Virus record (IMG/VR): IMGVR_UViG_3300031688_001478
Coordinates: 37,135 to 101,134 of that record
Reading direction: 5' to 3' (one strand)
Source: a virus
DNA length: 64,000 nucleotides
In this document: piece after piece, positions 43,264-64,000 of the stretch
How positions within the stretch are numbered: the first letter of the stretch is position 1
Layout: every line of letters starts with the position of its first letter
Notes under the pieces: model-generated
Databases searched by the model: none
What the model was told of the DNA's origin: nothing
What the model saw: only the letters and a program-made list of their open reading frames with translations
Program-made: the position numbers and the translations under genes

Positions 43264-44958
43264 ATGGCAACTTGGCGAAAATATTTTAATGCAACATCAT
43301 CAAACGGAGGAATGCCTTCGAACGTTGATGGGCAGTCAGCTGGACAATTTGGTGCGGCTCGGTTTAGCAGTTGGTTACCTGAAGTATATGCAGGCAGTCC
43401 TAACAGACTTATGCGTTATATTCAGTATGACCAAATGGACAACGACTTGGAGATCAATGCGGCACTAGATATTATTGCAGAATTTTGCTCACAAGATGAC
43501 GAGTACACTAAACTACCATTCATATTCGAGTTTACAGAAGATCCTAGCGAAACAGAAATGAAAATTCTTAGCAAAACACTTGATCAATGGTGTAACAACA
43601 ACGAGCTAAGAAGACGAGCTTTTAAAATGGTAAGGAACACTCTTAAATACGGAGACCAGTTCTTTATTAGAGATCCAGAAACTTATAAACTATTTTGGGT
43701 TGACCCAGCAAACATTGAAAAGGTTGTTGTTAACGAAAGTGAAGGTAAGAAGATTGAAACTTACTTTATTAAAAACTTAGACGTTAACTTTGAACAAATG
43801 TCGGCAACAAGTGCCGCGGCATTACATGCCAGACCATATGGCGCAGGTGGCGGCATGATGGCAGGTGGCAATGTTGGAACTAGTGTTAGTAACTATTCGC
43901 CTATGGGCGGAGACCAAGGTGCTACAACAGGTAGTCCAGTTGATGCACAGCATGTAGTACATATTAGTTTAACAGAAGGCATGGATCATTCATGGCCCTT
44001 TGGCATTAGCGTATTAGAGCCAGTATTTAAAGTTTTTAAACAAAAAGAATTATTAGAAGATAGTATTATTATTTACAGAGTTCATAGAGCACCTGAAAGA
44101 AGAGTGTTTATGATTGACGTTGGTAATATGCCTCCTCATAAAGCACAACAGTACTTAGAACGTGTTAAGTATGAAGTACAGCAAAAACGTGTACCTAACA
44201 AAAACAAAGACGGCAACAATGTTGCAGATGCGGCTTACAATCCAATGAGTATGTTAGAAGATTACTTCTTTGCTCAAACGGCAGACGGTCGTGGTAGTAA
44301 AGTTGATACATTGCCTGGCGGTGAGAACTTAGGTCAAATTGACGACTTAAAATACTTTAACAACAAACTGCTAAGAGGATTGAGAGTACCAAGTTCATAT
44401 TTGCCTACTGGCCCAGATGATGGAACAGCGGCAACAACTGACGGTAAAGTAGGCGTTGCATACATACAAGAATTTCAATTTGCTAAGTTTTGTCAAAGAC
44501 TACAAAAGCAAATTATACGAACATTAGATAGAGAATTTAAAATGTTCTTAAACTATAAAGGCATTGAGCTTGATTCAAGTACATTTAAATTAGAATTAAC
44601 AGTACCTCAAAACTTCAGTTCATACAGAGACTTGGACATGAACCTTCAAAGAGCACAGCTATTCGGCAGTTTAGAAGCAGTACCGTATTTAAGTCAGCAA
44701 TTTAAACTTAAGAAGTACTTAGGCTTAACGCAAGAAGAGATGAAGGATAACGAGCATTATTGGAAGATGGAGAATAAATACAATACAGACGGCGCAGAAG
44801 ATGTAGGCTTACGAAATGTAGGCGTTAGACCTGGCCCAAGTGCTCCGTTAGACATAATGGCACCGGTAGAAGACATACCAGCACCAATGGATGATGTAAT
44901 GAGTCCAGATGTTAGCGGAATGGAACCTGGTTCAGAAATACCAGATGGAAACTTATAA
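43264..44958 (+). CDS. 20: Portal vertex protein gp20
   Basis: The 564-aa portal (T4: 524 aa), the dodecamer through which DNA is packaged and to which neck and tail attach. Recognisable stretches are LPEVYAGSPNRLMRYIQYDQ, LEINAALDIIAEFCSQDD, YRVHRAPERRVFMIDVGNMP and YFNNKLLRGLRVPSSYLP. It is first of a head-gene series in T4 order (20-67-68-21-22-23) with one inserted gene. AAAGGAAC precedes the ATG. The stop shares one base with the next start. The C-terminal 50 residues are Pro/Met/Asp-rich and probably disordered. Confidence 0.95.
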   Translation: MATWRKYFNATSSNGGMPSNVDGQSAGQFGAARFSSWLPEVYAGSPNRLMRYIQYDQMDNDLEINAALDIIAEFCSQDDEYTKLPFIFEFTEDPSETEMKILSKTLDQWCNNNELRRRAFKMVRNTLKYGDQFFIRDPETYKLFWVDPANIEKVVVNESEGKKIETYFIKNLDVNFEQMSATSAAALHARPYGAGGGMMAGGNVGTSVSNYSPMGGDQGATTGSPVDAQHVVHISLTEGMDHSWPFGISVLEPVFKVFKQKELLEDSIIIYRVHRAPERRVFMIDVGNMPPHKAQQYLERVKYEVQQKRVPNKNKDGNNVADAAYNPMSMLEDYFFAQTADGRGSKVDTLPGGENLGQIDDLKYFNNKLLRGLRVPSSYLPTGPDDGTAATTDGKVGVAYIQEFQFAKFCQRLQKQIIRTLDREFKMFLNYKGIELDSSTFKLELTVPQNFSSYRDLDMNLQRAQLFGSLEAVPYLSQQFKLKKYLGLTQEEMKDNEHYWKMENKYNTDGAEDVGLRNVGVRPGPSAPLDIMAPVEDIPAPMDDVMSPDVSGMEPGSEIPDGNL

Positions 44959-50000: not shown

Positions 50001-53000
50001 ATGACAAAACAATCGAATTTTAACCCAGAATCGGATCTGAAAGTAAAAGGTAGTTTATCCGTAGACACCCATTTGGCGGTCACAGGTAATACTGTAATAA
50101 CAGGAACGTTACAAGTTACAGGCGATACAACTTATCTTTCAGACACAGTAACACTTAACAATGCAAATGGTTATGTAATTAACGCTGACGCTGATTCAGG
50201 CACAGCATTCTTAGACATGCGTACTAACGTAGCAGACGCTAATGTGAGACTTGAATACGCTGGCGCAACTAACACCTTGCTAGTTAAAAATGATGATGGC
50301 ACAGTTACTACACTGGGCGTAACAGGTGATGTCACAGCAAGTGCTACAATTACTGGTGCTACATTTACAGACGGCACAGCGACTATTACGGGCGGCGTAG
50401 GCACCGGTTTTACAAGTGTTACTTCAACAGAATTTGTTGGACACTTAACAGGACCAGTAACTGGTACAGCCACAATTGCAGACAAATTTACAAATGACAG
50501 AACATTAACACTCACAGGTGATGTTGCAGGTAGTATTGCACTAGGACTTAATGCTACAAGTTCAGCACCAAGCATGAGTGTAACAATACAAGCAAATTCA
50601 GTTGCATTAGGAACAGATACAACGGGTAACTATGTTGCAACAATTACAGGCGGCACAGGTTTAACGTCTACTGTAGTTACAGGTGAAAGCGTAACTCCAA
50701 CTATTAACTTAGATAACACGGCAGTTACTCCAGCAACTTACGGAACAGCAGGATCAACAGGAACATTTACAGTTGACCAACAAGGCAGAATAACAAGCGG
50801 TGTAACAACACCTATAGTAATTACAGCATCACAAGTTTCTGACTTTACAACAGCCGCAGAACTACTTTTAAGTATCAGTGATGCAGGCGGAGACGGAAGT
50901 TTAGCATACAACAATACAACAGGTGTATTTACATACACTGGCCCAAGTGCTTCAGAAGTAAGAGCACACTTAACAGCTGGAACAGGCTTAACAGTTACTA
51001 ACGGTGAATTTGTACTAGATACTACAGCAGTAACAGGTGCAAGTTATGGTAGTGCAACAGCAATACCTACATTCACTGTAGATGCAGAAGGCAGACTAAC
51101 AGCGGCGGCAGATTTAAACATTGCAGTACCAAGCTCACAGATTACAGATTTTGCAGAATCAGTTGACGACCAAGTTAATACACTATTAGTTGCGGGCACA
51201 AACTTAACCAAAGTTTACGATGATGCGGCAAATACATTAACGTTGGATACTGGATCAACAGTTATATTAACAACTGGTAACCAAAGTTTAGCAGGCACTA
51301 AGACATTTACAGGCTCTGTGGACTTAACAGGAGCAACTACAACGGTAGCAACACCTTCAGCTGATGCACATGTGTCAACGAAAAAATATGTAGATGACGA
51401 AATTGCAACTATTGTTGGTACAGCCGGAGCAACATTAGATACGCTAGGCGAAATTGCAACAGCATTAGGCAATGATGCCGCTCTTAATACAACATTAGTA
51501 AACTCTATAGCAACAAAACTTCCATTAGCAGGCGGAACAATGTCCGGTGCTATTGCTATGAGTACAAATAAAATTACTGGATTAGGCACTCCTAGTGCAA
51601 CAACAGATGCTACAACTAAGGCATACGTTGATACTGCAAATACACAGATGGAAGCGTATGTATTGCTAAAACAATCAATAGAACGAGGCCATACTAATAC
51701 TACTACGGCATTGAAAGTTAATAGAGCAATTAGAGTAGATTCTCCTTCCATGAATTGGAAAAACTTATCTGACGCATCATATACAGCAAATAACAATATT
51801 AATTTAGAAACAGAAGTTGACGGGTTAGATGGCGGCACACCAGGAGTAAGTTTTACACCAGTATTGACTGGAACTGAACACGGTCTAATAACTATAGGCA
51901 AACAAGGCGGAATAACTCAGCAAATACAAGGTAACAAGGTCATATCAGGATCACTAAGGATTGCACCAGGTATAGATGTTAATAATGCCGCAAATGTCGA
52001 TAACCAGGGTAGCGGTGTTTTAACAATTAACGGCAATGTGGTTAACAGCAGTACAACACTTGTAACCGCAGGTAGCTTTGTAGTAGGCAACAAGTACACA
52101 ATTGCAGTTGTAGGAACAACTAATTATACATTAGTTGGTGCCGCAAATAACACTGTAGGCACATTCTTTATTGCAACAGGTGTTGGTGCAGGCACAGGTA
52201 GAGCAACACATCATAACAATCAATGGCTAACAAACGTAAACCATTCATTCTTTAAGCACACAATTGCCGCCGGTGAAAGTGCGTTATCCATCTTAGGTGG
52301 TAACATTTATTACAGTACTAAATCATCTGAAATTACACCTTACTTAGTAAGCGATACTAGTGGTGCAGGATCAATATCAACAGCTAGTGGCATCGACACT
52401 ACTAAGAAACTTGGCGTTGACCAAGCACATTTCCAAACATTCGGTAACAGCACAATGTATATTGGTGATATTGGAAATGTAGCAACATATACAACAGTTC
52501 AATATGGTGGAAGTTCTTATACAACTGGCAATAGACCATTAGAAAGATTAACAATTGACGGCGGTATAGTACTTGGAGCCAGACAAGCAGACGACTCTAT
52601 TTTAGTTAACGGTACTGTTTTCTTTGACAATGACAGACTTAAAACTGTAGAAGGCGGTATTATTAAAAACGTAACAACAGCAACAGTTGATACGGTTAAT
52701 TATACAACAGGCACAGGCAGAATAGCAATAAATGATTATCAAGGTGGTGAAAACTATCTTGCCGCTCTTGCACAAGGTACAGACATATCAATAACTAAAG
52801 CAAGTAATGTTGCGGCAAACGTTATTACTATTAGTTCAAATACATCAAGCATTGTTAATACAGCAAAAAGTTCTTTGAGTGCCACAGGTGCTAACATTAG
52901 TTACGATGGCGCAGGAGCATTTACAAGTACTGTAGGAGCATTGACAACAACTAATGTTGCAGAAGGTTCAAATTTATACTTTACAGATGAAAGAGTAGAT

Positions 53001-55265
53001 GACAGAGTTAGTTCTTTACTAGTTGGCGGAGCAAACGTAACTTTAACTTACAATGATGCCGCAGGCACATTAACAGTTGATGCAGATTTACTTGGCGATA
53101 TTACAAGTGTAGTAGCTGGAGCAGGTATGACCGGCGGAGCAACTACAGGTGATGCAACACTAAACGTTATAGGCGGAAATGGTATTACCGTTTCAGCTGA
53201 TGCAGTAATAACAGACGATACTTACATAAAAAACTTATTCAATGCATCTGGTTCTCAATTAAGTTACACTAACGGTATATTTACAAGTACCGCAGATAAT
53301 TATAATGCTTGGAGTTTTACAACAGATACAGCAGGCAACCAAGCAGTTAGTAGCGCCGGCTTAGTTAGTATACTAGGCGGAACAAACATGGATGTTACCC
53401 ACAGTGGTAGCACAATTACAATTTCAACACTTGCAGATATAACAGGTATAATTGCTGGCTCAGGTATGACCGGAGGCGGAACAACTGGTTCTCCTACACT
53501 AAACGTTATAGGTGGAAAAGGCATTACTGCTAGTGCAAATGAAATTGCATTAGACTTTACAGATTTTAATACAAGTAATATTACAGAAAATACAAACTTA
53601 TATTACACAGATGCGAGAGCAGATGCAAGAATTACAGCATCAAGTACAAGTGCTTTAAGTGAAGGAACAAATTTATATTACACAAATGCTAGAGCAGATG
53701 CAAGAATTACAAATGCACTTATAGATGAAGATACTATGGTAACTAATAGTGCTACTAAATTACCTTCACAGCAATCTGTTAAATCATACGTTGACACGAA
53801 AGTGGCGTCTATCATTGGCGGATCGTTAGATTTAAGTAGCAAAGATACAGATGATTTAAGCGAAGGTAGTTCAAATTTATATTATACAAATGCTAGAGCA
53901 GACGCTAGAGTAGACGCAGGTTTTACTGCTAAGTCCACAACAAATTTAAGCGAAGGCACAAATTTATATTATACAAATGCAAGAGCAGATGCTAGAATTA
54001 CAGCATCAAGTACAAGTGCTTTAAGTGAAGGCACTAACTTGTATTACACAAATGCAAGAGCAGATGCTAGAATTACAAATGCATTAGTTGACGAAGATAA
54101 TATGGCATCAAATAGTGCTACTAAACTTCCAAGTCAGCAAAGTGTTAAAGCATACGTTGATTCACAGGTAGCAAGTAAAGATAATACAGACGAAATAACA
54201 GAAGGTTCGACTAATTTATACTTTACAAATGCAAGAGCAGACGCTAGAATAACAGCGGCTAGTACAAGTGATTTATCAGAAGGCACGAACCTTTACTTTA
54301 CAAATGCTAGAGCAGACACAAGAGCAAATAGTGCCTTTGATACTAAATTTGCGGCACAAACCACAACTGGTTTATCAGAAGGAACAAATTTATATTACAC
54401 GAATGCTAGAGCAGATGCAAGAATTACTAACGTATTAGTTGACGAAGATAATATGGCATCAAATAGTGCTACTAAACTTCCAAGTCAGCAATCAGTAAAA
54501 GCATACGTTGATTCACAAGTAGCAAGTAAAGATAATACAGACGAAATAACAGAAGGTTCAACTAACTTATACTTTACAAATGCTAGAGCTGATGCAAGAA
54601 TTACAGCATCAAGTACAAGTGCTTTAAGTGAAGGCACAAACTTATACTTTACAAATGCAAGAGCAGATGCAAGAATTACCAAAGCGGCAATTGATGCTCT
54701 TAATGTAGATGCAGATACATTAGATAGTATTAGTAGTGCAAGTTTCTTAAGAAGCGATGCGGCAGATACGCATAGTGCCGACATTACCCCTAGCACAAAC
54801 AATACAATTAACTTAGGTTCTGCTTCTAATAAGTATGCAAATGTTTATGCAACGACATTTAATGGTGTTGCAACCACAGCCCAGTATGCGGATTTGGCAG
54901 AAAACTATCTAGCAGATGCAGACTATCCACCAGGCACAGTATTAGTACTAGGCGGAGAACAAGAAGTAACAGTGACATCTGAATTCAATAATTCTAAAGT
55001 AGCAGGTGTTGTAAGTACAGACCCAGCACACTTAATGAATTCCGCACTTTCCGGGCAATTTGTTAAAGCAGTTGCACTTAGAGGACGAGTTCCTGTAAGA
55101 GTAGTTGGTATAGTTAGCAAAGGTGATGTGCTAATAACTAGTTCTACCCCAGGCGTGGCAATGGTCAGTTCCGATCCACACTTTGCAGGTGCGGCATGCA
55201 TTATTGGTAAAGCAATATCCAATAAAGAACATGCTGGCGAAGGCATTGTAGAAGTACTAGTTTAA
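50001..55265 (+). CDS. Large repeat tail fibre / adhesin 1
   Basis: A 1,754-aa fibre-like protein rich in Thr, Ala, Gly and Asn. The N-terminal 70 residues are short beta repeats (LSVDTHLAVTGNTVITGTLQ). The middle has GAGMTGGATTGDATLNVIGG-type blocks and a GNKYTIAVVGTTNYTLVGAA module of a kind common in phage fibres. Residues about 1190-1555 are many copies of LSEGTNLYYTNARADARI, some in near-identical DNA. The C-terminal domain (AQYADLAENYLADADYPPGT onward) is shared with the next gene and may be an intramolecular chaperone or cleavage domain. It is probably a host-binding fibre. It has its own late promoter. Confidence 0.88.
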   Translation: MTKQSNFNPESDLKVKGSLSVDTHLAVTGNTVITGTLQVTGDTTYLSDTVTLNNANGYVINADADSGTAFLDMRTNVADANVRLEYAGATNTLLVKNDDGTVTTLGVTGDVTASATITGATFTDGTATITGGVGTGFTSVTSTEFVGHLTGPVTGTATIADKFTNDRTLTLTGDVAGSIALGLNATSSAPSMSVTIQANSVALGTDTTGNYVATITGGTGLTSTVVTGESVTPTINLDNTAVTPATYGTAGSTGTFTVDQQGRITSGVTTPIVITASQVSDFTTAAELLLSISDAGGDGSLAYNNTTGVFTYTGPSASEVRAHLTAGTGLTVTNGEFVLDTTAVTGASYGSATAIPTFTVDAEGRLTAAADLNIAVPSSQITDFAESVDDQVNTLLVAGTNLTKVYDDAANTLTLDTGSTVILTTGNQSLAGTKTFTGSVDLTGATTTVATPSADAHVSTKKYVDDEIATIVGTAGATLDTLGEIATALGNDAALNTTLVNSIATKLPLAGGTMSGAIAMSTNKITGLGTPSATTDATTKAYVDTANTQMEAYVLLKQSIERGHTNTTTALKVNRAIRVDSPSMNWKNLSDASYTANNNINLETEVDGLDGGTPGVSFTPVLTGTEHGLITIGKQGGITQQIQGNKVISGSLRIAPGIDVNNAANVDNQGSGVLTINGNVVNSSTTLVTAGSFVVGNKYTIAVVGTTNYTLVGAANNTVGTFFIATGVGAGTGRATHHNNQWLTNVNHSFFKHTIAAGESALSILGGNIYYSTKSSEITPYLVSDTSGAGSISTASGIDTTKKLGVDQAHFQTFGNSTMYIGDIGNVATYTTVQYGGSSYTTGNRPLERLTIDGGIVLGARQADDSILVNGTVFFDNDRLKTVEGGIIKNVTTATVDTVNYTTGTGRIAINDYQGGENYLAALAQGTDISITKASNVAANVITISSNTSSIVNTAKSSLSATGANISYDGAGAFTSTVGALTTTNVAEGSNLYFTDERVDDRVSSLLVGGANVTLTYNDAAGTLTVDADLLGDITSVVAGAGMTGGATTGDATLNVIGGNGITVSADAVITDDTYIKNLFNASGSQLSYTNGIFTSTADNYNAWSFTTDTAGNQAVSSAGLVSILGGTNMDVTHSGSTITISTLADITGIIAGSGMTGGGTTGSPTLNVIGGKGITASANEIALDFTDFNTSNITENTNLYYTDARADARITASSTSALSEGTNLYYTNARADARITNALIDEDTMVTNSATKLPSQQSVKSYVDTKVASIIGGSLDLSSKDTDDLSEGSSNLYYTNARADARVDAGFTAKSTTNLSEGTNLYYTNARADARITASSTSALSEGTNLYYTNARADARITNALVDEDNMASNSATKLPSQQSVKAYVDSQVASKDNTDEITEGSTNLYFTNARADARITAASTSDLSEGTNLYFTNARADTRANSAFDTKFAAQTTTGLSEGTNLYYTNARADARITNVLVDEDNMASNSATKLPSQQSVKAYVDSQVASKDNTDEITEGSTNLYFTNARADARITASSTSALSEGTNLYFTNARADARITKAAIDALNVDADTLDSISSASFLRSDAADTHSADITPSTNNTINLGSASNKYANVYATTFNGVATTAQYADLAENYLADADYPPGTVLVLGGEQEVTVTSEFNNSKVAGVVSTDPAHLMNSALSGQFVKAVALRGRVPVRVVGIVSKGDVLITSSTPGVAMVSSDPHFAGAACIIGKAISNKEHAGEGIVEVLV
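54087..54600 (+). repeat. Near-identical direct repeat, 351-nt period, inside fibre 1
   Basis: A block beginning GTTGACGAAGATAATATGGC occurs at 54087 and again at 54438. The match runs for roughly 150-170 nt with few changes. The period is 117 codons, so unequal recombination would add or remove a whole fibre segment in frame. Shorter copies of the NARADARI repeat flank it. Confidence 0.85.
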
Positions 55266-55383: not shown

Positions 55384-58300
55384 ATGGCCACAGCAATTCA
55401 ATGGAGACGAGGCACCACTACCCAACACAGTAGCTTTACTGGTTTGGCAGGTGAGATCACAGTCGATACAGATTTAAACACCGTTATAGTCCACGACGGA
55501 AGTACAGCAGGCGGACACAGAATAGCAAAATATACAGAAGTAACATCAGCGGCGGCAGGCGACATTAGTTCGGTTGTAGCTGGAGCAGGTTTAACTGGTG
55601 GAGCAACTACTGGTGATGCAACAATTAATGTTATTGCTGGAGGCGGTATTACTGTTTCAGCTGATGCAGTATCACTTAATGCTTCTTCAGGAACATTTAC
55701 AACAGGTGTGCAAACATTCTTAGCAGGTGGAACACTTGCAGGACACATTATACCATCAGCAGACGTTACTTACGATTTAGGTACAAGCAGTAAGCAATGG
55801 CGTGATGTATATGTTGGTCCAGGATCACTTTACATTAACGGACAACAAGTACTTCAAGACAATTCAGGTACAATCCAAATTAGTGCTGATGCAAACCAAA
55901 ACGTTGGAATAGTAACATCAGGATCAGGTGACGTAGAACTTAACGCATCTGGAACAGGTGTAATTAATATCCAATCAGCAATTACAGTTGATGCAGGACA
56001 AACACTTACTGGTACTGGCGGCTTAACAATGGCTTCCAACATTAACTTAAACAGTAATTCAGTTAACAACTTACCAGCTCCTGGACATGCAGGTGACGCC
56101 ACTAACAAAACATACGTTGATGGTGCAACTTACTTAACAGGTGGAACTGGTATTACAAATAGTTCAGGAACCTTTGCAATTGATGCCACAGTAATTACAA
56201 CTACTGGCACTCAAACAATCTCAGGCAACAAGACGTTCTCAGGAACAACTACCGTAAGCGGTACTTTGAACTCCTCAGGCGCTCAATTAAATATTGCTGA
56301 TAACCTTATAACATTAAATTCAGATGCAACTGGCACTCCAAGTGAAGATGTTGGTCTTATTGTTGAAAGGGGCGATTCAACTAACGTTCAGTTCAAATGG
56401 ATTGAAGCGGCAGATGAGTGGTCATTCACAAATGACGGTTCAGCTTACCAAGGTCTTGTTGGACATGCAGACTTTAGTGCTGTTACTAGCGGAGACGGAA
56501 GTCTTTCATATAACAGTTCAACAGGTGCGTATACATATACTGGCCCAACTGCGGCAAACGTTAGAGCACATTTAAGTGCTGGAACAGGCATGTCATTTAG
56601 TGGTGGAGCATTCGCTACAACAATTACACAGTATACTGATGCACTAGCTAAAGCATCTATTACTGTTAATGATGCAGGCGGAGACGGAAGTTTAGCAATT
56701 AGCAACGGTGTAATTACTTATACTGGACCTAGTGCGGCTGAAGCCGAAGCACAAATTAATGCACATTTAAGTGGTGGAACAGGTATTACTTATACAGACG
56801 GTGCTATTAGTGTAGATGCTACAGTAGTATCAACAAGTGGTACTCAAACTGTTGCAGGTGCTAAGACATTCAGTGATAACATGATTATCAGTGGTAACTT
56901 AACAGTTAACGGTACACAGACTATTGTTAATACTGAAACATTAACTATTGATGATAACATGATTGTTCTTAACAATAATGAAGCTGGCACTCCAAGTGAA
57001 GATTCAGGTATTGAAATAGAACGTGGAACATCAACTAACGTTAAACTACAGTGGAAAGAAGCTAGTGACAGATGGGAAATGTTTGATGGTTCAAGCACTT
57101 ATCCACTTGCTAGAACTACAGCAGATTTAACAGAATCAGGTAACTTATACTACACAGATGCTAGAGCAAATGCTCGAGTGGCGGCGGCAACCGGTGCTAA
57201 CTTAGATTTAAGTAGCAAAGATACTGGTGACTTATCAGAATCAGGTAACTTATACTATACAGATGCTAGAGCAGATGCCAGAATAGCGGCGGCTGACACT
57301 GGTGATTTATCAGAAGGTAGCAACGAATACTTTACTACTGCTAGAGCAAGAGCAAGTATTAGTGAAGGATCAACTGAATTAGCATATAACAGTACAACTG
57401 GTGTGTTAACATTTACACAGGGTAGTACTTCAGGTGTATCAGAAGGTTCCAACCTTTACTACACAGATGCTAGAGCAGATGCAAGAATTGCCAACGCAAG
57501 TACAAGTAATTTAAGTGAAGGCACAAACCTTTACCACACAACTGAAAGAGTACAAGATATTGCAGGCGCAATGTTTACTGCAAATACAGAAAGTGGAATT
57601 ACAGTAACATATGATGATGCTGACGGTACAATTGACTTAACAACAAGTATTGCAGGATTTAGTACAAGTAATTTAAGCGAAGGTTCAAACCTTTACCACA
57701 CAACTGCAAGAGCTAGAGCAAGTATTAACGGTGGAACAGGTATTACTTATAATGCTTCTACTGGTGCTATTAGTTTAACAGACACTGGTTATGTAACAGG
57801 TGTTACAGCAGGAACTGGTTTAAGTGGAGGCGGTACTTCAGGTACTGTTACACTAAACGTTTCAGGCATTACAGTTGCAGAACTAGACGGCGGAGCAGTT
57901 CAGATAAGTTCAGAATCATTTGCTGATAATAATACTACGTTGATGACATCAGCGGCAATTCAAGATAAAATTGAAGCATATGGATATTCAACAACAACAG
58001 GTGACATTACAGGTGTTACAGCAGGTGCAGGTTTAACTGGTGGCGCAACAAGCGGATCAGCTGACTTGGCTGTTGGAGCAGGTACTGGTATTACTGTAAA
58101 TGCAAATGATATTGCAGTTACATTAACACCATTTAGTACAAGTGATTTATCAGAAGGCACGAACCTTTACTATACAAGTGCTAGAGCAGATGCTAGAGTT
58201 AGTGCAGTAGTAACCAATGCGTTTGTTGATGCATTGAATGTTGATGCTGATACACTAGATGACTTAACTAGTTCTCAGTTCTTAAGAAGCGATGCTAATG

Positions 58301-58785
58301 ATTCACACAGTGGAACAATTACTCCTTCTTCAAACAATGCATTAAACTTAGGATCAAGTGGACTTAAATATGCAAATGTTTACGCAACTACATTCCAAGG
58401 TAATGCAACTTCGGCGCAGTATGCGGATTTGGCTGAGAAATACGAAAGTGATGCAGAACTAGAAGCAGGCACAGTTGTTATGTTTGGTGGTGATAAAGAA
58501 GTTACAGCATGTGATAGTGAAAACTGTCATGCAGTAGCAGGTGTTATCAGTACTGATCCAGCTTATATGATGAACGCAGGAGCAGAAGGTCAATTTGTAG
58601 CATTAACAGGAAGAGTACCTACTAAGGTTACTGGTCCAGTTGCTAAAGGTGACTTAATGGTTTCCGCAGGTAACGGTATGGCTAAGGCTAATAACGATGC
58701 ACAGGCAGGAAGAATGATTGGTAAAGCAGTTGGTTCTTCAGAAGGCGGAGAAGCTGTTATAGAAGTACTTGTTAACTTGATGTAA
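55384..58785 (+). CDS. Large repeat tail fibre / adhesin 2 with Mtd-like N-terminus
   Basis: A 1,133-aa paralogue of the preceding fibre. The N-terminus IQWRRGTTTQHSSFTGLAGE and VHDGSTAGGHRIA match the N-terminal attachment domain of the Mtd type found on many phage fibres. The body repeats two related modules of about 200 residues (containing NITLNSDATGTPSEDVGL-type and NMIVLNNNEAGTPSEDSGIE stretches) and LSEGSNLYYTDARADARI units. The C-terminal 120 residues (AQYADLAEKYESDAELEAGT) align with fibre 1. The paired genes may form distal and proximal fibre parts or two receptor specificities. A bidirectional terminator follows. Confidence 0.88.
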   Translation: MATAIQWRRGTTTQHSSFTGLAGEITVDTDLNTVIVHDGSTAGGHRIAKYTEVTSAAAGDISSVVAGAGLTGGATTGDATINVIAGGGITVSADAVSLNASSGTFTTGVQTFLAGGTLAGHIIPSADVTYDLGTSSKQWRDVYVGPGSLYINGQQVLQDNSGTIQISADANQNVGIVTSGSGDVELNASGTGVINIQSAITVDAGQTLTGTGGLTMASNINLNSNSVNNLPAPGHAGDATNKTYVDGATYLTGGTGITNSSGTFAIDATVITTTGTQTISGNKTFSGTTTVSGTLNSSGAQLNIADNLITLNSDATGTPSEDVGLIVERGDSTNVQFKWIEAADEWSFTNDGSAYQGLVGHADFSAVTSGDGSLSYNSSTGAYTYTGPTAANVRAHLSAGTGMSFSGGAFATTITQYTDALAKASITVNDAGGDGSLAISNGVITYTGPSAAEAEAQINAHLSGGTGITYTDGAISVDATVVSTSGTQTVAGAKTFSDNMIISGNLTVNGTQTIVNTETLTIDDNMIVLNNNEAGTPSEDSGIEIERGTSTNVKLQWKEASDRWEMFDGSSTYPLARTTADLTESGNLYYTDARANARVAAATGANLDLSSKDTGDLSESGNLYYTDARADARIAAADTGDLSEGSNEYFTTARARASISEGSTELAYNSTTGVLTFTQGSTSGVSEGSNLYYTDARADARIANASTSNLSEGTNLYHTTERVQDIAGAMFTANTESGITVTYDDADGTIDLTTSIAGFSTSNLSEGSNLYHTTARARASINGGTGITYNASTGAISLTDTGYVTGVTAGTGLSGGGTSGTVTLNVSGITVAELDGGAVQISSESFADNNTTLMTSAAIQDKIEAYGYSTTTGDITGVTAGAGLTGGATSGSADLAVGAGTGITVNANDIAVTLTPFSTSDLSEGTNLYYTSARADARVSAVVTNAFVDALNVDADTLDDLTSSQFLRSDANDSHSGTITPSSNNALNLGSSGLKYANVYATTFQGNATSAQYADLAEKYESDAELEAGTVVMFGGDKEVTACDSENCHAVAGVISTDPAYMMNAGAEGQFVALTGRVPTKVTGPVAKGDLMVSAGNGMAKANNDAQAGRMIGKAVGSSEGGEAVIEVLVNLM

Positions 58786-59160: not shown

Positions 59161-59168
59161 GATAAATA
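59161..59168 (+). promoter_or_regulatory. Late promoter box (GATAAATA) for curli-like operon
   Basis: GATAAATA 62 nt before the first gene of the operon. All genes to the window edge overlap or nearly abut, so this may be the only promoter. Confidence 0.75.
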
Positions 59169-59230
59169 GTAACGAGTAGACAGTAACACACACACTTAAA
59201 GTAGCAACCCTTAAAAGGTGTGTATATAAT

Positions 59231-59527
59231 ATGGAAGAAATATTTGGATTGATCGCTGAAGTAGGAGCCCCCATCGCCGGAAGTCTAGTAATGGGATTCT
59301 TTATCTTTATGGTAATAAAACAAATTCTCGAGGGTGTTGTAGACCAGGTCAAAACTTTGACTATGTTTTGCACATCACTAGAAGCGAGAGCAAGTACTAT
59401 GAGTAACGAAATGTTAAAAATAGACTTGCTAGTTAGCAGTGCCTTAGACCTCAGACCTGACATAGATCGAGTTTCGAGAGCAGATAATTTTGTCGAAGAT
59501 GGCAAAGTGGATGCTAGGAGAGACTAA
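59231..59527 (+). CDS. Small membrane protein A of curli-like operon
   Basis: A 98-aa protein with one N-terminal membrane span (GAPIAGSLVMGFFIFMVIKQ) and a helical, charged remainder that should face one compartment (LEARASTMSNEMLKIDLLVS). Layout and size resemble gene B next to it and small holin-like or channel-anchor proteins. First in the operon, with AAAGGTG before the ATG. Its stop shares one base with the next ATG. It could be an inner-membrane partner of the export system or a lysis protein; the sequence does not decide. Confidence 0.75.
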   Translation: MEEIFGLIAEVGAPIAGSLVMGFFIFMVIKQILEGVVDQVKTLTMFCTSLEARASTMSNEMLKIDLLVSSALDLRPDIDRVSRADNFVEDGKVDARRD

Positions 59528-59826
59528 TGGATATTGCACAGGCGATTAATGACTTTGGATTTCCAATCGTGTTATGCGTTGGACTCGGTTACTTTATATA
59601 TTATATATGGTGGTTTATTGGAGAAAAGATAGATCCCGCTCTTGGCGACATGCATATAGCACTAATCAGAGTAATAGATAAAATGCGTAGATTAGACCAA
59701 GATTTAATTAGGCTACAACAGAAAGTTGATGTTGTGTTAGAATACAGAGCTAGACAACAAGTGCTAGACAATGCAGAACAAGAAACTGCATTAAAAACAT
59801 TAAAACAAAAGCAAACAGGAAAGTAA
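59527..59826 (+). CDS. Small membrane protein B of curli-like operon
   Basis: A 99-aa protein with an N-terminal span (FPIVLCVGLGYFIYYIWWFI) and a long helix likely to form a coiled coil (IRVIDKMRRLDQDLIRLQQK). It is similar in plan to protein A and to small YvrJ/holin-like phage proteins (the short DFGFPIV start). It lies 1 nt before CsgF. A and B could form a hetero-oligomer in the inner membrane. Function unknown. Confidence 0.75.
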   Translation: MDIAQAINDFGFPIVLCVGLGYFIYYIWWFIGEKIDPALGDMHIALIRVIDKMRRLDQDLIRLQQKVDVVLEYRARQQVLDNAEQETALKTLKQKQTGK

Positions 59827-59827
59827 A

Positions 59828-60343
59828 ATGAAAATTACAGGTACACACTTAGGTATGTTGGTTATGGTCGGATATTTTATAATGTCTTTGGCTAATAGTG
59901 ACCTTTATGCCGATGAACTAAAGTTTAAGTTCAAGTCTCCGTCATTTTCTGGTAACGGGACAGGAGCACATTATTTAACAATTGAGAACCAGGAGAAGTC
60001 ACGAAAAGATAAGATTAAAGAAGACATAGAATCTGCGTTAAAACGAGCAGAACGTGACAATGATAATTCGACAATTAATAAATTTATTAGAAATTTGGAG
60101 AGTAGAATTTATTCACAAATTTCTAAAGGATTAGTCGACAGCATGTTTTGTGATCCAGCAGTAGTTATTGCATGTACAAATTCAGATTCAGGTAGTTTTG
60201 AAATTGAAGGAAATACTGTTACATACATTAAAACAGTTAATGAAGATGGGCTATCTATTATTAGAATGACTATTGTTGACCCTGACGGAACAATAACAAC
60301 TATTGAGATTCCAATTGGAATCGGCAACATTGGCGGCGGTTAA
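59828..60343 (+). CDS. csgF: CsgF-like curli assembly factor
   Basis: A 171-aa protein with a signal peptide (cut near residue 28, LYA). The mature start LKFKFKSPSFSGNGTGAHYL parallels the N-terminus of E. coli CsgF, the peptide that plugs into the CsgG pore. The C-terminal half (RIYSQISKGLVDSMF, then DGLSIIRMTIVDPDGTITTI) also follows the CsgF pattern. A charged insertion (residues about 55-80) and one Cys pair are additions. CsgF couples the outer-membrane channel to fibre nucleation. It overlaps CsgG by 1 nt. Confidence 0.88.
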   Translation: MKITGTHLGMLVMVGYFIMSLANSDLYADELKFKFKSPSFSGNGTGAHYLTIENQEKSRKDKIKEDIESALKRAERDNDNSTINKFIRNLESRIYSQISKGLVDSMFCDPAVVIACTNSDSGSFEIEGNTVTYIKTVNEDGLSIIRMTIVDPDGTITTIEIPIGIGNIGGG

Positions 60344-61353
60344 TGAAACTGTCTAATTACATACTGTTCTTTGTCGGCGCAATGTACTTAACTGGGTGTG
60401 CTAGTATATCTATACCCGGTGATACAGCATGTAATACGGACTTTCTCGAATGCGTAGAAGAGCCGAAGCAAGTAGAATTACCCACATATCGAAAATTACG
60501 ATATTTACCACCTAGCGAAACAATGCCAGTGGTAGCTGTTTATCAGTTTACTGACCAAACAGGACAAAGAAAAAGTCAAGATGGTGTCGCTAGTTTTAGT
60601 ACAGCGGTCACACAGGATCCGAAGAGCATATTGATTGACGCCTTGAAGGCGGCAGGTGCTCACGAAAACCCAAAAGGAACATGGTTCCGGGTAGTTGAAC
60701 GGGGTCTTGGCTTAGATAACTTAGTGAGGGAAAGGCAGATAGTTCGTAGTACACGCGAACAATATCAGACTGAAGAAAAACCTCAACAAGCAGTACAGCC
60801 ATTGTTATTTGCTGGTATGATACTCGAAGGAGGTGTTGTAGGTTATGACACTAATGTAGAGACTGGCGGTAATGGTGCAAGGTACTTAGGTATTGGTACT
60901 ACAAACCAATATAGAAGAGATAGTGTTACTATATCACTTAGAGCAGTAAGTACGCTCACCGGTGAAGTAATACTGAATGTACAGACATACAAAACTATCC
61001 TTAGTACAGGAATGGCAGGAGACGTATTCAAATTTTTAGACATGGATACACGATTGCTTGAATTGGAAAGTGGCATGACACAGAACGAGAGCGTAACTTA
61101 TGCAGTCCGGTCGGCGATTGAAGCCGCAGTATTGGCATTGATACAACAAGGTGATGAAAGAGGATATTGGAAAATTGTGTATCCGGAGAATTGGCAAGAA
61201 GAAGTAGATCAGCAAGAACGAGCTTACTGGATGAAAGTCAATAATCAAGAAATTTTGGATACAGATGTAGACGAGAAGCCTACGTCATCACAGAATACTT
61301 TTTGGAAAAAAATATTACTAAAAAGTGAACCCATTAATGGAGAAGAAAAATGA
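60343..61353 (+). CDS. csgG: CsgG-like curli secretion channel lipoprotein
   Basis: A 336-aa protein with lipobox MYLTGC (Cys19). It follows E. coli CsgG closely through the fold: VVAVYQFTDQTGQ, FSTAVTQDPKSILIDALKAA, VVERGLGLDNLVRERQIVRS, VGYDTNVETGGNGARYLGIG, LRAVSTLTGEVILNVQTYKT and SAIEAAVLALIQQG. CsgG forms a nonameric outer-membrane channel for curlin export. The constriction loop keeps the Phe (Phe85) but lacks the Tyr and Asn of E. coli and is one residue longer. A C-terminal extension of about 55 residues goes beyond the family core. ATGA overlap with the curlin-like gene. Confidence 0.95.
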   Translation: MKLSNYILFFVGAMYLTGCASISIPGDTACNTDFLECVEEPKQVELPTYRKLRYLPPSETMPVVAVYQFTDQTGQRKSQDGVASFSTAVTQDPKSILIDALKAAGAHENPKGTWFRVVERGLGLDNLVRERQIVRSTREQYQTEEKPQQAVQPLLFAGMILEGGVVGYDTNVETGGNGARYLGIGTTNQYRRDSVTISLRAVSTLTGEVILNVQTYKTILSTGMAGDVFKFLDMDTRLLELESGMTQNESVTYAVRSAIEAAVLALIQQGDERGYWKIVYPENWQEEVDQQERAYWMKVNNQEILDTDVDEKPTSSQNTFWKKILLKSEPINGEEK

Positions 61354-62180
61354 AGACAAACGTAATAAAGAAATTTACACTACAAGTCTTCGCTATAGTA
61401 AGTGTAATAATAGGAAGTCAGGCTCTAGGTGCAACGGATAACGAAGTACTACTAGACCAAGAAGGTGACAACTTAATATTAACAATATTACAAGCTGGTA
61501 ACAGTAACAGAGTTTCTGGAGTGGCCTCAGGGTCAGGAGATTTAGTTGTAACTGGTAACAGTTTGATAATTGATATCATACAAGACGGTAACACAAATAA
61601 GTTTTTTGGAGACTTAATATTTGATGGATCCGGAAGTTCAGTAATGGACTTTTATCAATTAGGTGATAGTAACGTCTGGGATTTACAGATCGGTGCTAAC
61701 TCTAATAGTGCAGATAATACAGACATGCTAGTAGACATTCAGGGCGACGGCAACACATTTGATGTTGGCATAGCTCACAGTGCCGCGGCGGAAAGCACTA
61801 ACTTTGATTTAGATATACTTGGTTCTAGGAACAATTTTACTGCAAGTTTCAACAATACTACAGCTTGGGCATCAGCATCAGGCAATAACGCTGTTGGCGG
61901 AATTAAAAGTACTGGAACTGGCACATCTGCTTTAGCAGGTATTACAATTGATACTAGTAACGTTGTATGGAATATGGAAATTATAGGAGACGACAACAAA
62001 TTTGCTACTAAACAAAGTGGTAACGGTGGTCATTCCTTAACAGTAGTCTTAGACGGCAGTGATGGTGATTTTCAATTCATACAGGACATGACAGCAACAT
62101 GTAGTCCAACGTGTGAAGGTATAATTAACATAAATCTAAATAGCGAAAATGCATCAGTTCTTATTAAACAGACTGATTAA
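61350..62180 (+). CDS. Curlin-like repeat protein 1
   Basis: A 276-aa protein with a signal peptide (to about residue 28, ALG-ATDN). It carries curlin-type units with the Gln-x-Gly-x-x-Asn core: ILQAGNSNR, IIQDGNTNK, FYQLGDSNVW, then weaker VDIQGDGNT and WNMEIIGDDN units. Amyloid-forming CsgA/CsgB use the same Q-x-G-x-N ladder. It is longer and less regular than E. coli CsgA (151 aa). The end has a Cys pair (CSPTC). Placed after csgG, it is the likely export substrate and fibre subunit. The FecR gene begins 32 nt before its stop. Confidence 0.8.
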   Translation: MKTNVIKKFTLQVFAIVSVIIGSQALGATDNEVLLDQEGDNLILTILQAGNSNRVSGVASGSGDLVVTGNSLIIDIIQDGNTNKFFGDLIFDGSGSSVMDFYQLGDSNVWDLQIGANSNSADNTDMLVDIQGDGNTFDVGIAHSAAAESTNFDLDILGSRNNFTASFNNTTAWASASGNNAVGGIKSTGTGTSALAGITIDTSNVVWNMEIIGDDNKFATKQSGNGGHSLTVVLDGSDGDFQFIQDMTATCSPTCEGIININLNSENASVLIKQTD

Positions 62181-63321
62181 CATAACAGCAGTATTAGTAC
62201 TGTTGCTTACACCAAATCTGAGTGCCGCTGAGAGCATCGGCGGCATTATTGAACAAAGTGGAGCAACTGGAAGTATTGTAAGGTTGTCAGGCGAAGAACT
62301 GGCGGCTAATATTTTAGCCAATATTGTAAGTTATGATGAAGTAGAAACAACAAATGGGAGACTAAAAATTGAGTTTCTCGACAAAACCCAGGTTAGTCTA
62401 ACAGAACACACTTACATGGAAATAGACGAATATGTATTCGACCCAGATCCAAGTAAAAGCAAGATGGCATTAAATTTTGTACAAGGAACAGCTAGGTTTG
62501 CCACGGGCAGTTTAGGTCTCGTAGCAAAAGAAAATATAACAATCCTGACCCCTACCGCAAGTATAGGGATTAGAGGAACCGATTTTACTACCACAGTCGA
62601 TGAACTGGGTAGGAGTCTAGTGATATTATTACCGGACGAAGACTGTACTAATACAGTAGCATTAGAAGAAGGGTGTGCTCCAAGTGGTAGCATAACGGTA
62701 ACAAATCAAGGCGGCACAGTAATATTAGATGAAGCCTACCAGGCAGTAATGGTAAGCACATTTGAAACAAGCCCTACACAGCCTGTTGTGTTGGTTGATT
62801 TAGATTTAAATATGATAGATAATATGTTTATTGTAGCAGAACCAAAACAGATTACAGAAGCAAAAGAAGAACAAGTACAAGAATTAAAAGGCGACAACGG
62901 ATTATTAGACTTTGATGGCTTAGATGCAAATGCAATTGAGCAAGATGTTTTAGCAGATACAACAGAAGATTTAGACTACACGGAATTGGATATAGATTTA
63001 TTAAATGTAGACTTCCTAGTAGACTTATTAGACATTGTAGAAAAAACTACTAGTGGATTAGATGAAAAAGGCGGAGACTCAGGCAGTGGCGATAATAAAT
63101 TAATAGGTGCTGTATACGGAACCAATCCTGGAAATCAATTTAATATTATTCCAGACTTAGATGGCAAAGTATTTTTTCTCAGGCAAGTAAGCAATAAAAT
63201 TAGTATTAAATTACGAAAAGGTTCTGTCGCACAGCTAGATATAAAAGACGGAGATTTAGGAGACACTATTATATGTTTAAGTAGTTGTGAAAACATATTA
63301 ATAAGTATAACACAAGAATGA
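62149..63321 (+). CDS. FecR-domain exported protein
   Basis: A 390-aa protein with a signal peptide (cut near NLSAAES). Residues about 65-150 are a FecR-type domain: TTNGRLKIEFLDKTQVSLTE, MALNFVQGTARFATGSLG and ITILTPTASIGIRGTDFTTT. Unlike true FecR it has no anti-sigma helix or membrane span after the signal, so it resembles secreted FecR-like proteins associated with surface structures. The middle is acidic and the C-terminus beta-rich with two Cys. It overlaps the curlin-like genes on both sides (32 nt and ATGA), so it is co-made with them and may organise or anchor the fibres. Confidence 0.82.
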   Translation: MHQFLLNRLINITAVLVLLLTPNLSAAESIGGIIEQSGATGSIVRLSGEELAANILANIVSYDEVETTNGRLKIEFLDKTQVSLTEHTYMEIDEYVFDPDPSKSKMALNFVQGTARFATGSLGLVAKENITILTPTASIGIRGTDFTTTVDELGRSLVILLPDEDCTNTVALEEGCAPSGSITVTNQGGTVILDEAYQAVMVSTFETSPTQPVVLVDLDLNMIDNMFIVAEPKQITEAKEEQVQELKGDNGLLDFDGLDANAIEQDVLADTTEDLDYTELDIDLLNVDFLVDLLDIVEKTTSGLDEKGGDSGSGDNKLIGAVYGTNPGNQFNIIPDLDGKVFFLRQVSNKISIKLRKGSVAQLDIKDGDLGDTIICLSSCENILISITQE

Positions 63322-64000
63322 ATATAGAAAAAAAATTAAATGACATGAAGCCAAAAGATACTCCTCTGTTAGTATTAGGATATATCTTATTGGGTATGAT
63401 GCTATTATTACCAGCAACAGCAAAAGCAGACAATGAAGTGGTGCTAGATCAGGAAGGTGATAATGTGGTTGTAGATATAATGCAAGCCGGCGCTATTAAT
63501 AAAATAGATATAGTACTAGGATTGAATAATAATACTAACAATACACTTAAAATAGGCCAAGGACACTCCGAGGGCGCCGAAAGTAACAACGTGTTTTTTA
63601 GTGTTGATGGCACCCACAACACTATGCAAATAGAACAGCATGGCAGTAATAACGAAGTTGGCTGGACTAATGCCTGGGGCACTGGTATTGGGTTTGGCGG
63701 CGACTTAGACGGAAATAGTAATCAGATATACTTCCATCAAAATTGTACTCGTGGCGCAAGTTGTGGCAAATCAGATATAGGATTTCATATCAAAGGAAAT
63801 TCTAATACAGTTCGATATGGTCAAGGAGTTTGGTTTGGTTCTGGCGGCAGTATATCGAGTACCACATTTTACGATGATGGCGACGAGGGCGGAAACCATA
63901 CAGCAACTATAGACATTCACGGTAACAATAATACTCTTGCTGGATTCCAAAGAAACGGTAGTCTTGATACTTATGATGGTCATACTGCAAATTTATACTT
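63318..64000 (+). CDS. Curlin-like repeat protein 2 (cut by window end)
   Basis: The frame is open from ATG 63318 to the edge, 227 codons. After a charged start and a hydrophobic signal (YILLGMMLLLPATAKA) the mature part opens with DNEVVLDQEGDNVVVDIMQA, very like the first curlin-like protein (DNEVLLDQEGDNLILTILQA). More Q/G/N units follow (LKIGQGHSE, MQIEQHGSNN, IDIHGNNN). A Cys pair (CTRGASC) is present. The two proteins may act as major and nucleator subunits, like CsgA and CsgB. The C-terminus is outside the window. Confidence 0.82.
   Translation, partial: MNIEKKLNDMKPKDTPLLVLGYILLGMMLLLPATAKADNEVVLDQEGDNVVVDIMQAGAINKIDIVLGLNNNTNNTLKIGQGHSEGAESNNVFFSVDGTHNTMQIEQHGSNNEVGWTNAWGTGIGFGGDLDGNSNQIYFHQNCTRGASCGKSDIGFHIKGNSNTVRYGQGVWFGSGGSISSTTFYDDGDEGGNHTATIDIHGNNNTLAGFQRNGSLDTYDGHTANLY

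Follow-up and report, generated by a model that had tools for sequence, protein, structure and literature searches.

A probable curli-type export module in a jumbo T4-like phage lineage and its putative link to cyclase signalling

The end of a 64,000-nucleotide stretch of viral DNA (the window; positions 37,135 to 101,134 of IMG/VR record IMGVR_UViG_3300031688_001478) carries a phage-encoded curli-type (type VIII) module. On balance, the module is best read as exporting a curlin-like fibre late in infection, with a FecR-domain protein as adaptor to signalling by a CHASE2-domain cyclase. The source is probably a marine giant virus of bacteria. Systems of this type are already known from smaller marine phages. 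What is new, within the literature searched, is the place of this one in a jumbo T4-like lineage.

Layout of the operon

The initial annotation described seven overlapping or abutting genes behind one late box. All seven open reading frames (ORFs) are found there on one strand, overlapping or abutting, and the operon is composed of the following features from position 59161.

59161..59168, + strand: late-type promoter box GATAAATA, 70 b ahead of sTM1, the first gene
59231..59527, + strand: sTM1, 98 aa; one hydrophobic segment and a predicted-helix-like tail; phrog_18771
59527..59826, + strand: sTM2, 99 aa; same architecture and PHROG (phrog_18771) as sTM1, to which it is 15% identical
59828..60343, + strand: CsgF-like protein, 171 aa; signal-peptide-like start; PF10614, 3.3e-11
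60343..61353, + strand: CsgG-like outer-membrane channel lipoprotein, 336 aa; PF03783, 3.4e-48
61350..62180, + strand: curlin-like 1, 276 aa; signal-peptide-like start; beta-solenoid model
62149..63321, + strand: FecR-domain protein, 390 aa; PF04773, 1.3e-9
63139..63315, + strand: C-terminal strand domain of the FecR protein, residues 331-389; final I-x-I-x-Q motif common to curlins
63318..64000, + strand: curlin-like 2, first 227 residues only

Curlin-like 2 is incomplete because the contig stops at window base 64000. The full-length protein has 313 aa in L004, a contig identical to the window over the window's last kilobase. In identical or near-identical contigs the operon continues beyond the window, and its last gene encodes a CHASE2-domain cyclase; signalling therefore probably belongs to the operon.

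The family assignments of CsgF, CsgG, and the FecR protein hold in a Pfam search, with all three matches above the cut-offs. sTM1 has no Pfam family at E 1 and none in NCBIfam. sTM2 has two sub-threshold Pfam matches, neither a kinase, and none in NCBIfam. A histidine-kinase identity was rejected for both, as the proteins are too short and have no such match in these databases. A holin identity for sTM2, for which the sole hint is a weak phrog_4898 match (E 0.028), was set aside. Both proteins are plausible inner-membrane partners. Scans of the window for tRNAs and Rfam families found nothing.

Late-type boxes in the window are clustered upstream of genes, and a T4-type late sigma gene is present. 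Ahead of the first gene of the module, an ATAAATA box stands at 44-127 b in all 32 jumbo-lineage loci listed. Among the loci listed overall, 59 of 69 have the box within 220 b upstream, and in most of the others' kin it lies at 13-17 b. Sigma-70 and terminator scans gave no excess over shuffles. The module of this jumbo T4-like phage is probably expressed late.

The portal protein of the window is 52% identical to that of PA5oct (287 kb), the closest among the matches listed. These listed matches (20 of 2471 records) are all from phages of 284-490 kb. The record that contains the window is fragmentary (101 kb), and a 340 kb relative, with a portal 77% identical, has the same module. A portal search of 40 records left 26 without a match, including the 217 kb contig G022; fragments may lack the gene.

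Conservation and predicted structures

The module was surveyed in the best 80 of 108 viral matches, with genes counted only where the locus extends far enough. In these 80 loci, the order CsgF-CsgG-curlin-FecR-cyclase is constant as far as the contigs reach. CsgF is present in 78/78, at least one curlin-like gene in 74/74, and FecR in 68/68. sTM1 and sTM2 are each found in 74 of 76 loci, where their placement is variable (on the opposite strand or separated by CsgF in some), and a second curlin-like gene in 43 of 60. The cyclase follows in 50 of 57, and the remaining seven records have it further downstream. Where dN/dS could be measured it is 0.03-0.35, with dS saturated in several cases. By this measure, the module genes are under purifying selection.

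Hydrophobic signal-like N-termini are near-universal: CsgF 55/57, CsgG 62/62 (52 with a lipobox), FecR 55/56, curlin-like 1 58/60, and curlin-like 2 33/35, as scored by our own heuristic, which also flags membrane proteins such as sTM1 and the cyclase.

Curlin-like 1 and 2 each match the curlin family PF07012 at E ~0.003, under the curated cut-off. Three repeat patterns were tried against 2000 shuffles. A loose strand-G-x-x-N unit occurs six times in curlin-like 1 and five times in curlin-like 2 (shuffle means 0.25 and 0.30; none as high). The QxGxx[NQ] pattern has three copies in curlin-like 1, equalled in 1/2000 shuffles and significant, and two in curlin-like 2, equalled in 122/2000 and not significant. 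The xxGxxN pattern is weak in both (42 and 107 of 2000 shuffles).

Curlin-like proteins that did not model as beta-solenoids would have contradicted the initial annotation; curlin-like 1, the one modelled, is predicted as an all-beta solenoid of 21 strands. In a second-look alignment, Pontibacter CsgA is the top match (Z 17.1). SufD beta-helices tie with CsgA within one Z unit, at lower rmsd, and tailspike beta-helices are also among the matches. Foldseek returned no match to the model at E 0.001 or better. Given this empty search and the SufD tie, the fold is that of a generic solenoid. The idea, from the initial annotation, of a self-sufficient curli-type set that would export candidate subunits of its own is supported.

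Proposed working and alternatives

The model of the FecR protein contains a signal helix, a FecR fold, a low-confidence linker, and a six-strand C-terminal domain, and is weak overall (pTM 0.49). Its FecR domain aligns with PupR over 136 residues (Z 14.8, rmsd 2.8). FecR iron and sigma regulators have a cytoplasmic anti-sigma region followed by a transmembrane helix. In the phage protein, the modelled N-terminal helix (residues 2-20) runs directly into the FecR domain, PF04773 is the sole Pfam family, and a cytoplasmic anti-sigma part is absent from both the model and the Pfam scan. An iron-regulator reading was rejected on the lack of this part. The protein is most likely a periplasmic adaptor and not an iron or sigma-factor regulator.

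The tails of the FecR and curlin-like proteins share a motif. An [ILVF]x[ILVT]xQ ending within four residues of the C-terminus, picked after inspection of the tails, is found in 54 of 56 FecR proteins, 39 of 59 curlin-like 1, and 23 of 33 curlin-like 2. It is seen in 0/436 other ORFs of at least 150 aa, 34/2385 shorter ORFs, 0/58 CsgF, 0/61 CsgG, and 2/41 cyclases. In a profile comparison with either curlin, the FecR tail outscores every one of 150 column shuffles. This comparison is not specific, since CsgF also exceeds its shuffles (22.2; shuffle maximum 19.7). Against solved structures, the FecR tail gave no curlin match and nothing informative among the matches listed.

In the proposed pathway, the curlin-like proteins, CsgF, CsgG, and the FecR protein would exit the cytoplasm via the host Sec route. 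CsgG would be the outer-membrane channel, with CsgF seated on it. Curlin-like 1, and curlin-like 2 where present, would cross CsgG and form a fibre with a beta-solenoid fold at the surface of the infected cell. The FecR protein would be a periplasmic adaptor that combines a FecR domain with C-terminal strands of curlin-like type. Through this protein, encoded beside the cyclase, fibre or export status would change cyclase output. By raw count, 7 of 20 alphaproteobacterial regions with a relative of the cyclase also have a FecR-domain gene within ~3 kb. Export of a phage curlin-like protein through CsgG-CsgF is likely. Candidate purposes are aggregation, a block to superinfection, or a pore. 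A more specific version, which we put forward tentatively and hold to be doubtful, is that FecR docks curlin. Held by or capping the nascent fibre through its C-terminal strands, it would report export status across the envelope to the cyclase, and the amount of exported phage amyloid would set the cyclic nucleotide level and, with it, infection timing.

All three cyclase copies scanned contain CHASE2 and guanylate-cyclase domains. The cyclase gene is as constant as the other genes, which would fit a module that is first of all a sensor of the surface or host state with a cyclic nucleotide output, in which curlin and FecR form an envelope sensor with no large fibre. FecR and cyclase directly adjoin in minimal modules: the FecR stop overlaps the cyclase start in 13 of 60 loci, and the gap is at most 14 b in 17 of 60, several being near-copies. 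The interval is a variable slot that holds a separate three-gene phage cassette in this jumbo lineage. The five bacterial curli loci described below, which have neither FecR nor cyclase, also speak for the sensor reading. CsgF-CsgG and up to two curlin-like proteins, however, exceed the needs of a sensor, and we consider it rather unlikely.

A second alternative makes CsgG, with or without CsgF, an outer-membrane pore for nutrient entry or lysis timing, the curlin-like genes being secondary. CsgG is strongly conserved, and its profile matches solved E. coli CsgG at 1e-72 (residues 2-260 of 277 aligned). At 336 aa, the window CsgG is ~56 aa longer than that of HTVC008M (280 aa), the extension being C-terminal. 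CsgF has weak similarity to E. coli CsgF (E 0.07), mostly N-terminal, where its FxFxxPxFxG region aligns weakly. No CsgE gate was found in 10 records, most of them fragments; HTVC008M, Melnitz, and the contigs of 340 kb and 217 kb were among those searched, and the E. coli control was detected. A CsgG channel lacking this gate may therefore be open. L087 also encodes a phage lysozyme (PF00959, 4e-11) on the opposite strand, ~2.4 kb beyond the cyclase, and this enzyme could serve in lysis. The available text of two papers proposes uptake (PMC7029224) and pinholin or secretin roles (PMC9004378). A bare pore, however, needs neither the curlin-like gene nor FecR, both of which are present in every locus counted and under purifying selection, which leaves this alternative with a low probability.

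Curlin-like proteins acting as tail or capsid fibres are very unlikely. The operon sits after two large receptor-binding-type ORFs (50001-55265 and 55384-58785) with the same kind of late-type box; both have BppL_N matches, and the second also matches Mtd_N. The tailspike matches of curlin-like 1 point the same way. Virion parts, however, are generally assembled in the cytoplasm, whereas nearly all curlin-like proteins have signal-like N-termini and are co-conserved with an outer-membrane channel.

A bacterial source was sought in two ways. A genome-wide scan with the CsgG alignment matched 155 stretches, of which 14 encode relatives. All 14 are on assembled contigs that resemble phage DNA as far as they extend, and a bacterial source was rejected by this route. 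The sTM genes are found in 12 of the 14, FecR in 11, and the cyclase in eight; L102 has only CsgF-CsgG-curlin visible and L098 is without a cyclase call. We infer a phage origin for these contigs. In the second search, CsgF matched seven of 385 genomes of one class (alphaproteobacteria), and five chromosomal curli loci were kept. One of the seven was below the cut-off, and G043 was dropped with two matches: L117, a phage-type module, and apparently the contig of L098. FecR, the cyclase, and the sTM pair are absent from all five loci.

Although the CsgF, CsgG, and curlin families were first described in bacteria, chance acquisition of a now decaying bacterial operon is extremely improbable, as the low dN/dS and constant core order already contradict it (unless the contigs are unrepresentative), the 26 distinct jumbo-lineage CsgG sequences form one well-supported clade (100/99), and sTM1/sTM2 partners are not seen in the five bacterial loci.

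Comparison with known systems

Curli modules are described in the available text for pelagimyophages (Zaragoza-Solas et al. 2020, PMC7029224), methylophage Melnitz (Buchholz et al. 2022, PMC9004378), and pelagipodophages, with curlins, FecR, and cyclase (Wittmers et al. 2022, PMC9599517). The initial annotation's statement that csgG- and csgF-like genes are reported in some marine T4-like phages was too narrow, since curlins, FecR, and cyclase were published as well. Searches of the open-access literature, covering titles and abstract openings among the matches listed, gave no report of curli in jumbo phages. The terms curli and CsgG do not occur in the searchable text of PMC7824862, nor jumbo in that of PMC9599517.

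The pelagiphage modules (PMC9599517, PMC7029224; HTVC008M), as far as their available descriptions go, resemble the window's: small gene(s), CsgF, CsgG, curlin-like, FecR, often a second curlin-like, and cyclase. CsgE is likewise absent from the modules in the available text of PMC9599517. The window's lineage differs in being jumbo T4-like and in the additional genes that separate curlin-like 2 from the cyclase. The histidine kinase gene(s) described there are equated by position only with sTM1/sTM2, which have no kinase match.

The Melnitz GenBank record has the order CsgF-CsgG-curlin-FecR-curlin-cyclase, as in the window's module, and its CsgG is 43.7% identical to the window's over the matched part. 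In its available text, the Melnitz paper (PMC9004378) states that fibre genes are lacking, proposes a lysis pore or secretin, and reports no clumping in culture. The GenBank record, in contrast, annotates curlin-repeat and FecR proteins. This comparison favours curlin-like subunit export over a lysis pore or secretin.

With the present module, viral curli systems are no longer confined to pelagipodophages and myophages of the 140-kb class but reach a lineage of jumbo phages. It adds to the published modules a new virus group and a clue to the linkage of parts. The curlin-like protein, FecR, and cyclase appear as indispensable as the CsgG channel, and an unexplained gene list becomes a testable circuit in which fibre export would be linked to cyclic-nucleotide signalling. 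Published modules occur at all 65 GOV2.0 stations and make up ~0.1% of assembled viral proteins, according to the available text of PMC9599517. If the circuit is real, this wide distribution would mean that many marine phages alter both the surface and the signalling state of the cells they infect.

Bacterial curli (E. coli csg and the alphaproteobacterial loci) and the phage module have CsgG and CsgF in common, and the phage module has curlin-like proteins as candidate exported subunits. They differ in CsgE, which was not found in the phage records searched, and in FecR, cyclase, and the sTM pair, which are near-constant in phage loci and missing from the five alphaproteobacterial ones. FecR/PupR cell-surface signalling proteins have the same FecR domain fold as the phage FecR protein. 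Unlike them, the phage protein starts with a signal helix, has no anti-sigma part in the model or Pfam scan, and finishes in a strand domain whose last residues are curlin-like.

Composition of the operon

The window spans positions 37135-101134 of a virus record 101,134 bases long, so window and contig end together. The initial annotation described seven overlapping or abutting genes behind one late box, and all seven are present, on one strand. Its family assignments held for CsgF, CsgG, and the FecR-domain protein, which score over the Pfam cut-off; the two curlin-like proteins reached an E of only about 0.003. A stem-loop with a T-run is located between the upstream receptor-binding-type ORF and the operon box.

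Features of the window (operon genes in order, all on one strand)
3-16544, minus strand: ORF of at least 5514 aa, continuing past the window edge
43264-44958: portal protein, sharing 52% identity with its counterpart in Pseudomonas phage PA5oct and relatives
55384-58785: receptor-binding-type ORF with Mtd_N and BppL_N domains, upstream of the operon
59161: box GATAAATA, ahead of the seven genes
Gene 1: sTM1, small membrane protein, 98 aa, phrog_18771 match
Gene 2: sTM2, small membrane protein, 99 aa, phrog_18771 match
Gene 3: CsgF, 171 aa
Gene 4: CsgG, 336 aa
Gene 5: curlin-like 1, 276 aa
Gene 6: FecR-domain protein, 390 aa
Gene 7: curlin-like 2, 227 aa within the window

The last kilobase of the window is identical in contig L004 and is matched at 995/1000 by L005 and L006. 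These contigs supply the full curlin-like 2 (313 aa) and further genes. Downstream gene order was read from longer stretches of six near-identical or related contigs. In the window's lineage, curlin-like 2 is followed by one or two short ORFs that contain hydrophobic stretches, a lipoprotein-like protein (92-105 aa), an Asn/Thr-rich exported-looking protein (453-556 aa; the repeat part of one copy is 41% Asn and 29% Thr), an exported-looking protein of 1070-1086 aa, and, directly ahead of the cyclase, a membrane/coiled-coil-type protein of 143-150 aa. Testing 15 records turned up a cyclase in 14, all but the window's own truncated contig; all three copies scanned contain CHASE2 and guanylate/adenylate cyclase domains. 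The L029/L088 contig has an additional 499 aa gene behind FecR. Across L024-L027 and L029, a 491-499 aa gene with the N-terminus M-x-x-D-x-I-x-x-Y-V-x-K-A-K sits between FecR and curlin-like 2, and the L029 copy has no Pfam family. A phage lysozyme gene (PF00959, 4e-11) lies on the minus strand of L087 at 15873-16343, about 2.4 kb past the cyclase.

The predicted structure of curlin-like 1 is a solenoid, the fold whose absence the initial annotation would have counted against its reading. Apart from a low-confidence signal region, the modelled protein consists wholly of strands (mean pLDDT 76.8, pTM 0.74). At a threshold of E 0.001, Foldseek returned nothing; the top hit of a second-look aligner was Pontibacter CsgA (Z 17.1, rmsd 8.8 over 202 residues), and SufD scored Z 16.5 with rmsd 3.2. 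Identification as a curlin rests on the repeats, context, and signal-like start.

Conservation and phage lineage

The operon is real, complete-looking, and conserved. For each gene, the count covers those of the best 80 of 108 viral matches whose sequence is long enough. CsgF is found in 78/78, at least one curlin-like gene in 74/74, and FecR in 68/68. sTM1 and sTM2 each occur in 74/76, and a second curlin-like gene in 43/60. The cyclase is within reach in 50 of 57 loci; the other seven have a large insertion, and all seven records carry it further on. The sTM pair is less fixed, lying on the opposite strand beyond the cyclase in seven contigs, and CsgF is between sTM1 and sTM2 in four. Where dS was estimable (sTM1 and sTM2 excluded; some dS >1), dN/dS is 0.03-0.22 against L007 and 0.07-0.17 against L010; for curlin-like 2 it is 0.22-0.35. 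An ATAAATA box precedes sTM1 by 44-127 bases in all 32 jumbo-lineage loci listed and lies within 220 bases upstream in 59 of 69 loci listed, with none in the other 10. Within the window, 9 of 18 such boxes are at most 150 bases upstream of a listed gene, in addition to the one before sTM1, left out of the 9 by a displacement in the gene list (10/18; rough binomial 4e-10).

The portal protein matches 2471 records, and the 20 of these listed are all phages of 284-490 kb. Forty records carrying, or tested for, the module were compared. A matching portal is present in 14, and 11 of these are at 67-100% (one partial), including the window's record and a 339,794-base contig. The published pelagimyophage HTVC008M, the methylophage Melnitz, and one other record have partial matches only, at 34-37%. 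No portal match was found in the other 26, which include a 217 kb contig and many short fragments. The window also encodes T4-type late sigma and SbcCD-like genes. We read its phage as a member of a jumbo T4-like lineage, for which the relatives suggest a marine origin.

The CsgG tree (82 proteins) places the 26 distinct jumbo-lineage sequences in one clade (support 100/99), which adjoins five sequences from assembled genomes and stands apart from the HTVC008M and Melnitz side. The five chromosomal bacterial sequences form a group, next to which lies one viral sequence (L056); the branches here are long, which makes the exact placement unsure. A search of 50,697 phage records for such a CsgG matched 7, made up of HTVC008M (two), Melnitz (four), and an unannotated 1.5 kb "Salmonella phage"; no jumbo phage record among those searched gave a match. 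The last of the seven, OR851715.1 (1499 bases), bears the doubtful label Salmonella phage S.Kent 1-2-1, and its CsgG shares 39% identity with the one in the window. Six phage records, those of HTVC008M and Melnitz, carry a FecR of this type.

Scanning the genome collection with the phage CsgG alignment identified 14 loci, all on assembled contigs, with sTM genes in 12, FecR in 11, and the cyclase in 8, the missing ones mostly cut by contig ends. We take these loci to be of phage origin. CsgF was also searched for in 385 genomes of one class, centred on a Maricaulis assembly, and seven matched. Setting aside one sub-threshold match and one phage case leaves five chromosomal loci, which carry CsgF, CsgG, and curlin-like genes. 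FecR, cyclase, and sTM genes were not found in any of the five (phage-built profiles, E 0.01; 18-19 kb read). By this comparison, the phage module looks like curli joined by a FecR/CHASE2-cyclase pair and a membrane pair, the membrane pair having been seen in phages only. Cyclase relatives, whole or catalytic part, occur in 240 of the same 385 genomes, and a FecR-domain gene is within about 3 kb of the best ones in 7 of 20 regions read (a raw count; several regions cut short).

The FecR protein and a proposed cargo slot

The FecR model (mean pLDDT 72.9, pTM 0.49) starts with a signal helix and the FecR domain; a linker of low confidence then leads to a C-terminal domain built from six short strands (pLDDT about 81-86). 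Residues 60-226 superpose on PupR (Z 14.8, rmsd 2.8, 136 aligned). The protein ends in I-x-I-x-Q; an alignment of 26 sequences shows no variation at the first I or the Q and almost none at the second I. The broader motif [ILVF]x[ILVT]xQ, defined post hoc after viewing protein tails, ends 54/56 FecR, 39/59 curlin-like 1, and 23/33 curlin-like 2 proteins. It ends 0/58 CsgF, 0/61 CsgG, 2/41 cyclases, 0/436 other ORFs of at least 150 aa, and 34/2385 shorter ones. Profile comparison gave the FecR tail a score of 26.9 against curlin-like 2 and of 20.9 against curlin-like 1, both beating all 150 column shuffles. The likeness to curlins is only suggestive, because CsgF (22.2) likewise beat all 150.

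The FecR stop and the cyclase start share 4 bases in 13 of 60 loci and are no more than 14 bases apart in 17 of 60; start positions were called mechanically, and several loci are near-copies. Elsewhere the gap reaches 5.5 kb, and 7-10 kb in the window's lineage. The genes in these gaps differ between loci, and several appear by eye to have signal-like starts. From adjacency in some loci and differing genes in others, we read the arrangement as a FecR-cyclase pair interrupted by a cargo slot.

A separate three-gene phage cassette occurs in L084-L088 and L090, of the window's lineage, and in L176-L204. Its first gene encodes an exported-looking protein that is rich in Asn, Thr, and Ser and has a conserved C-terminal domain. 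The second encodes a large, acidic, exported-looking protein (complete copies have about 820-1090 aa), and the third a membrane/coiled-coil-type protein. The first gene is ahead of the large one in 26 of 27 annotated loci, and the third follows it in 23, the other four stopping there. Nineteen of the 27 are without a curli gene or cyclase within the stretch read. The C-terminal domain of the first cassette protein is also found in 11 phage records, including pelagiphages and Roseobacter phages, and in HTVC202P the adjacent genes are of similar build. One might guess at lysis or surface display as the cassette's role. In the 340 kb jumbo relative L089 (6202-8770, minus strand), and likewise in L030-L032, the slot lies between curlin-like 2 and the cyclase and holds two exported-looking proteins with one CxxCH heme motif each; cytochrome c-type Pfam matches are below cut-off.

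Probable function and comparison with published phage systems

Export of the curlin-like subunits is the likeliest job of the operon. The most interesting testable step is a possible link to the cyclase through FecR.

Curli-type phage systems are already known from three papers. CsgF, CsgG, and the operon were described in pelagimyophages, with uptake or sibling capture proposed (PMC7029224). For Melnitz, a lysis pore or secretin was proposed, and clumping was not observed (PMC9004378). CsgA/B, FecR, cyclase, and a histidine kinase were described in podo- and myophages; the module was present at every one of the 65 stations surveyed, and transcripts were reported (PMC9599517). Relative to this literature, and as far as our searches show, the new elements are the jumbo lineage, the five-locus bacterial contrast, doubt over the histidine kinase label, the common C-terminal motif, and the cargo slot.
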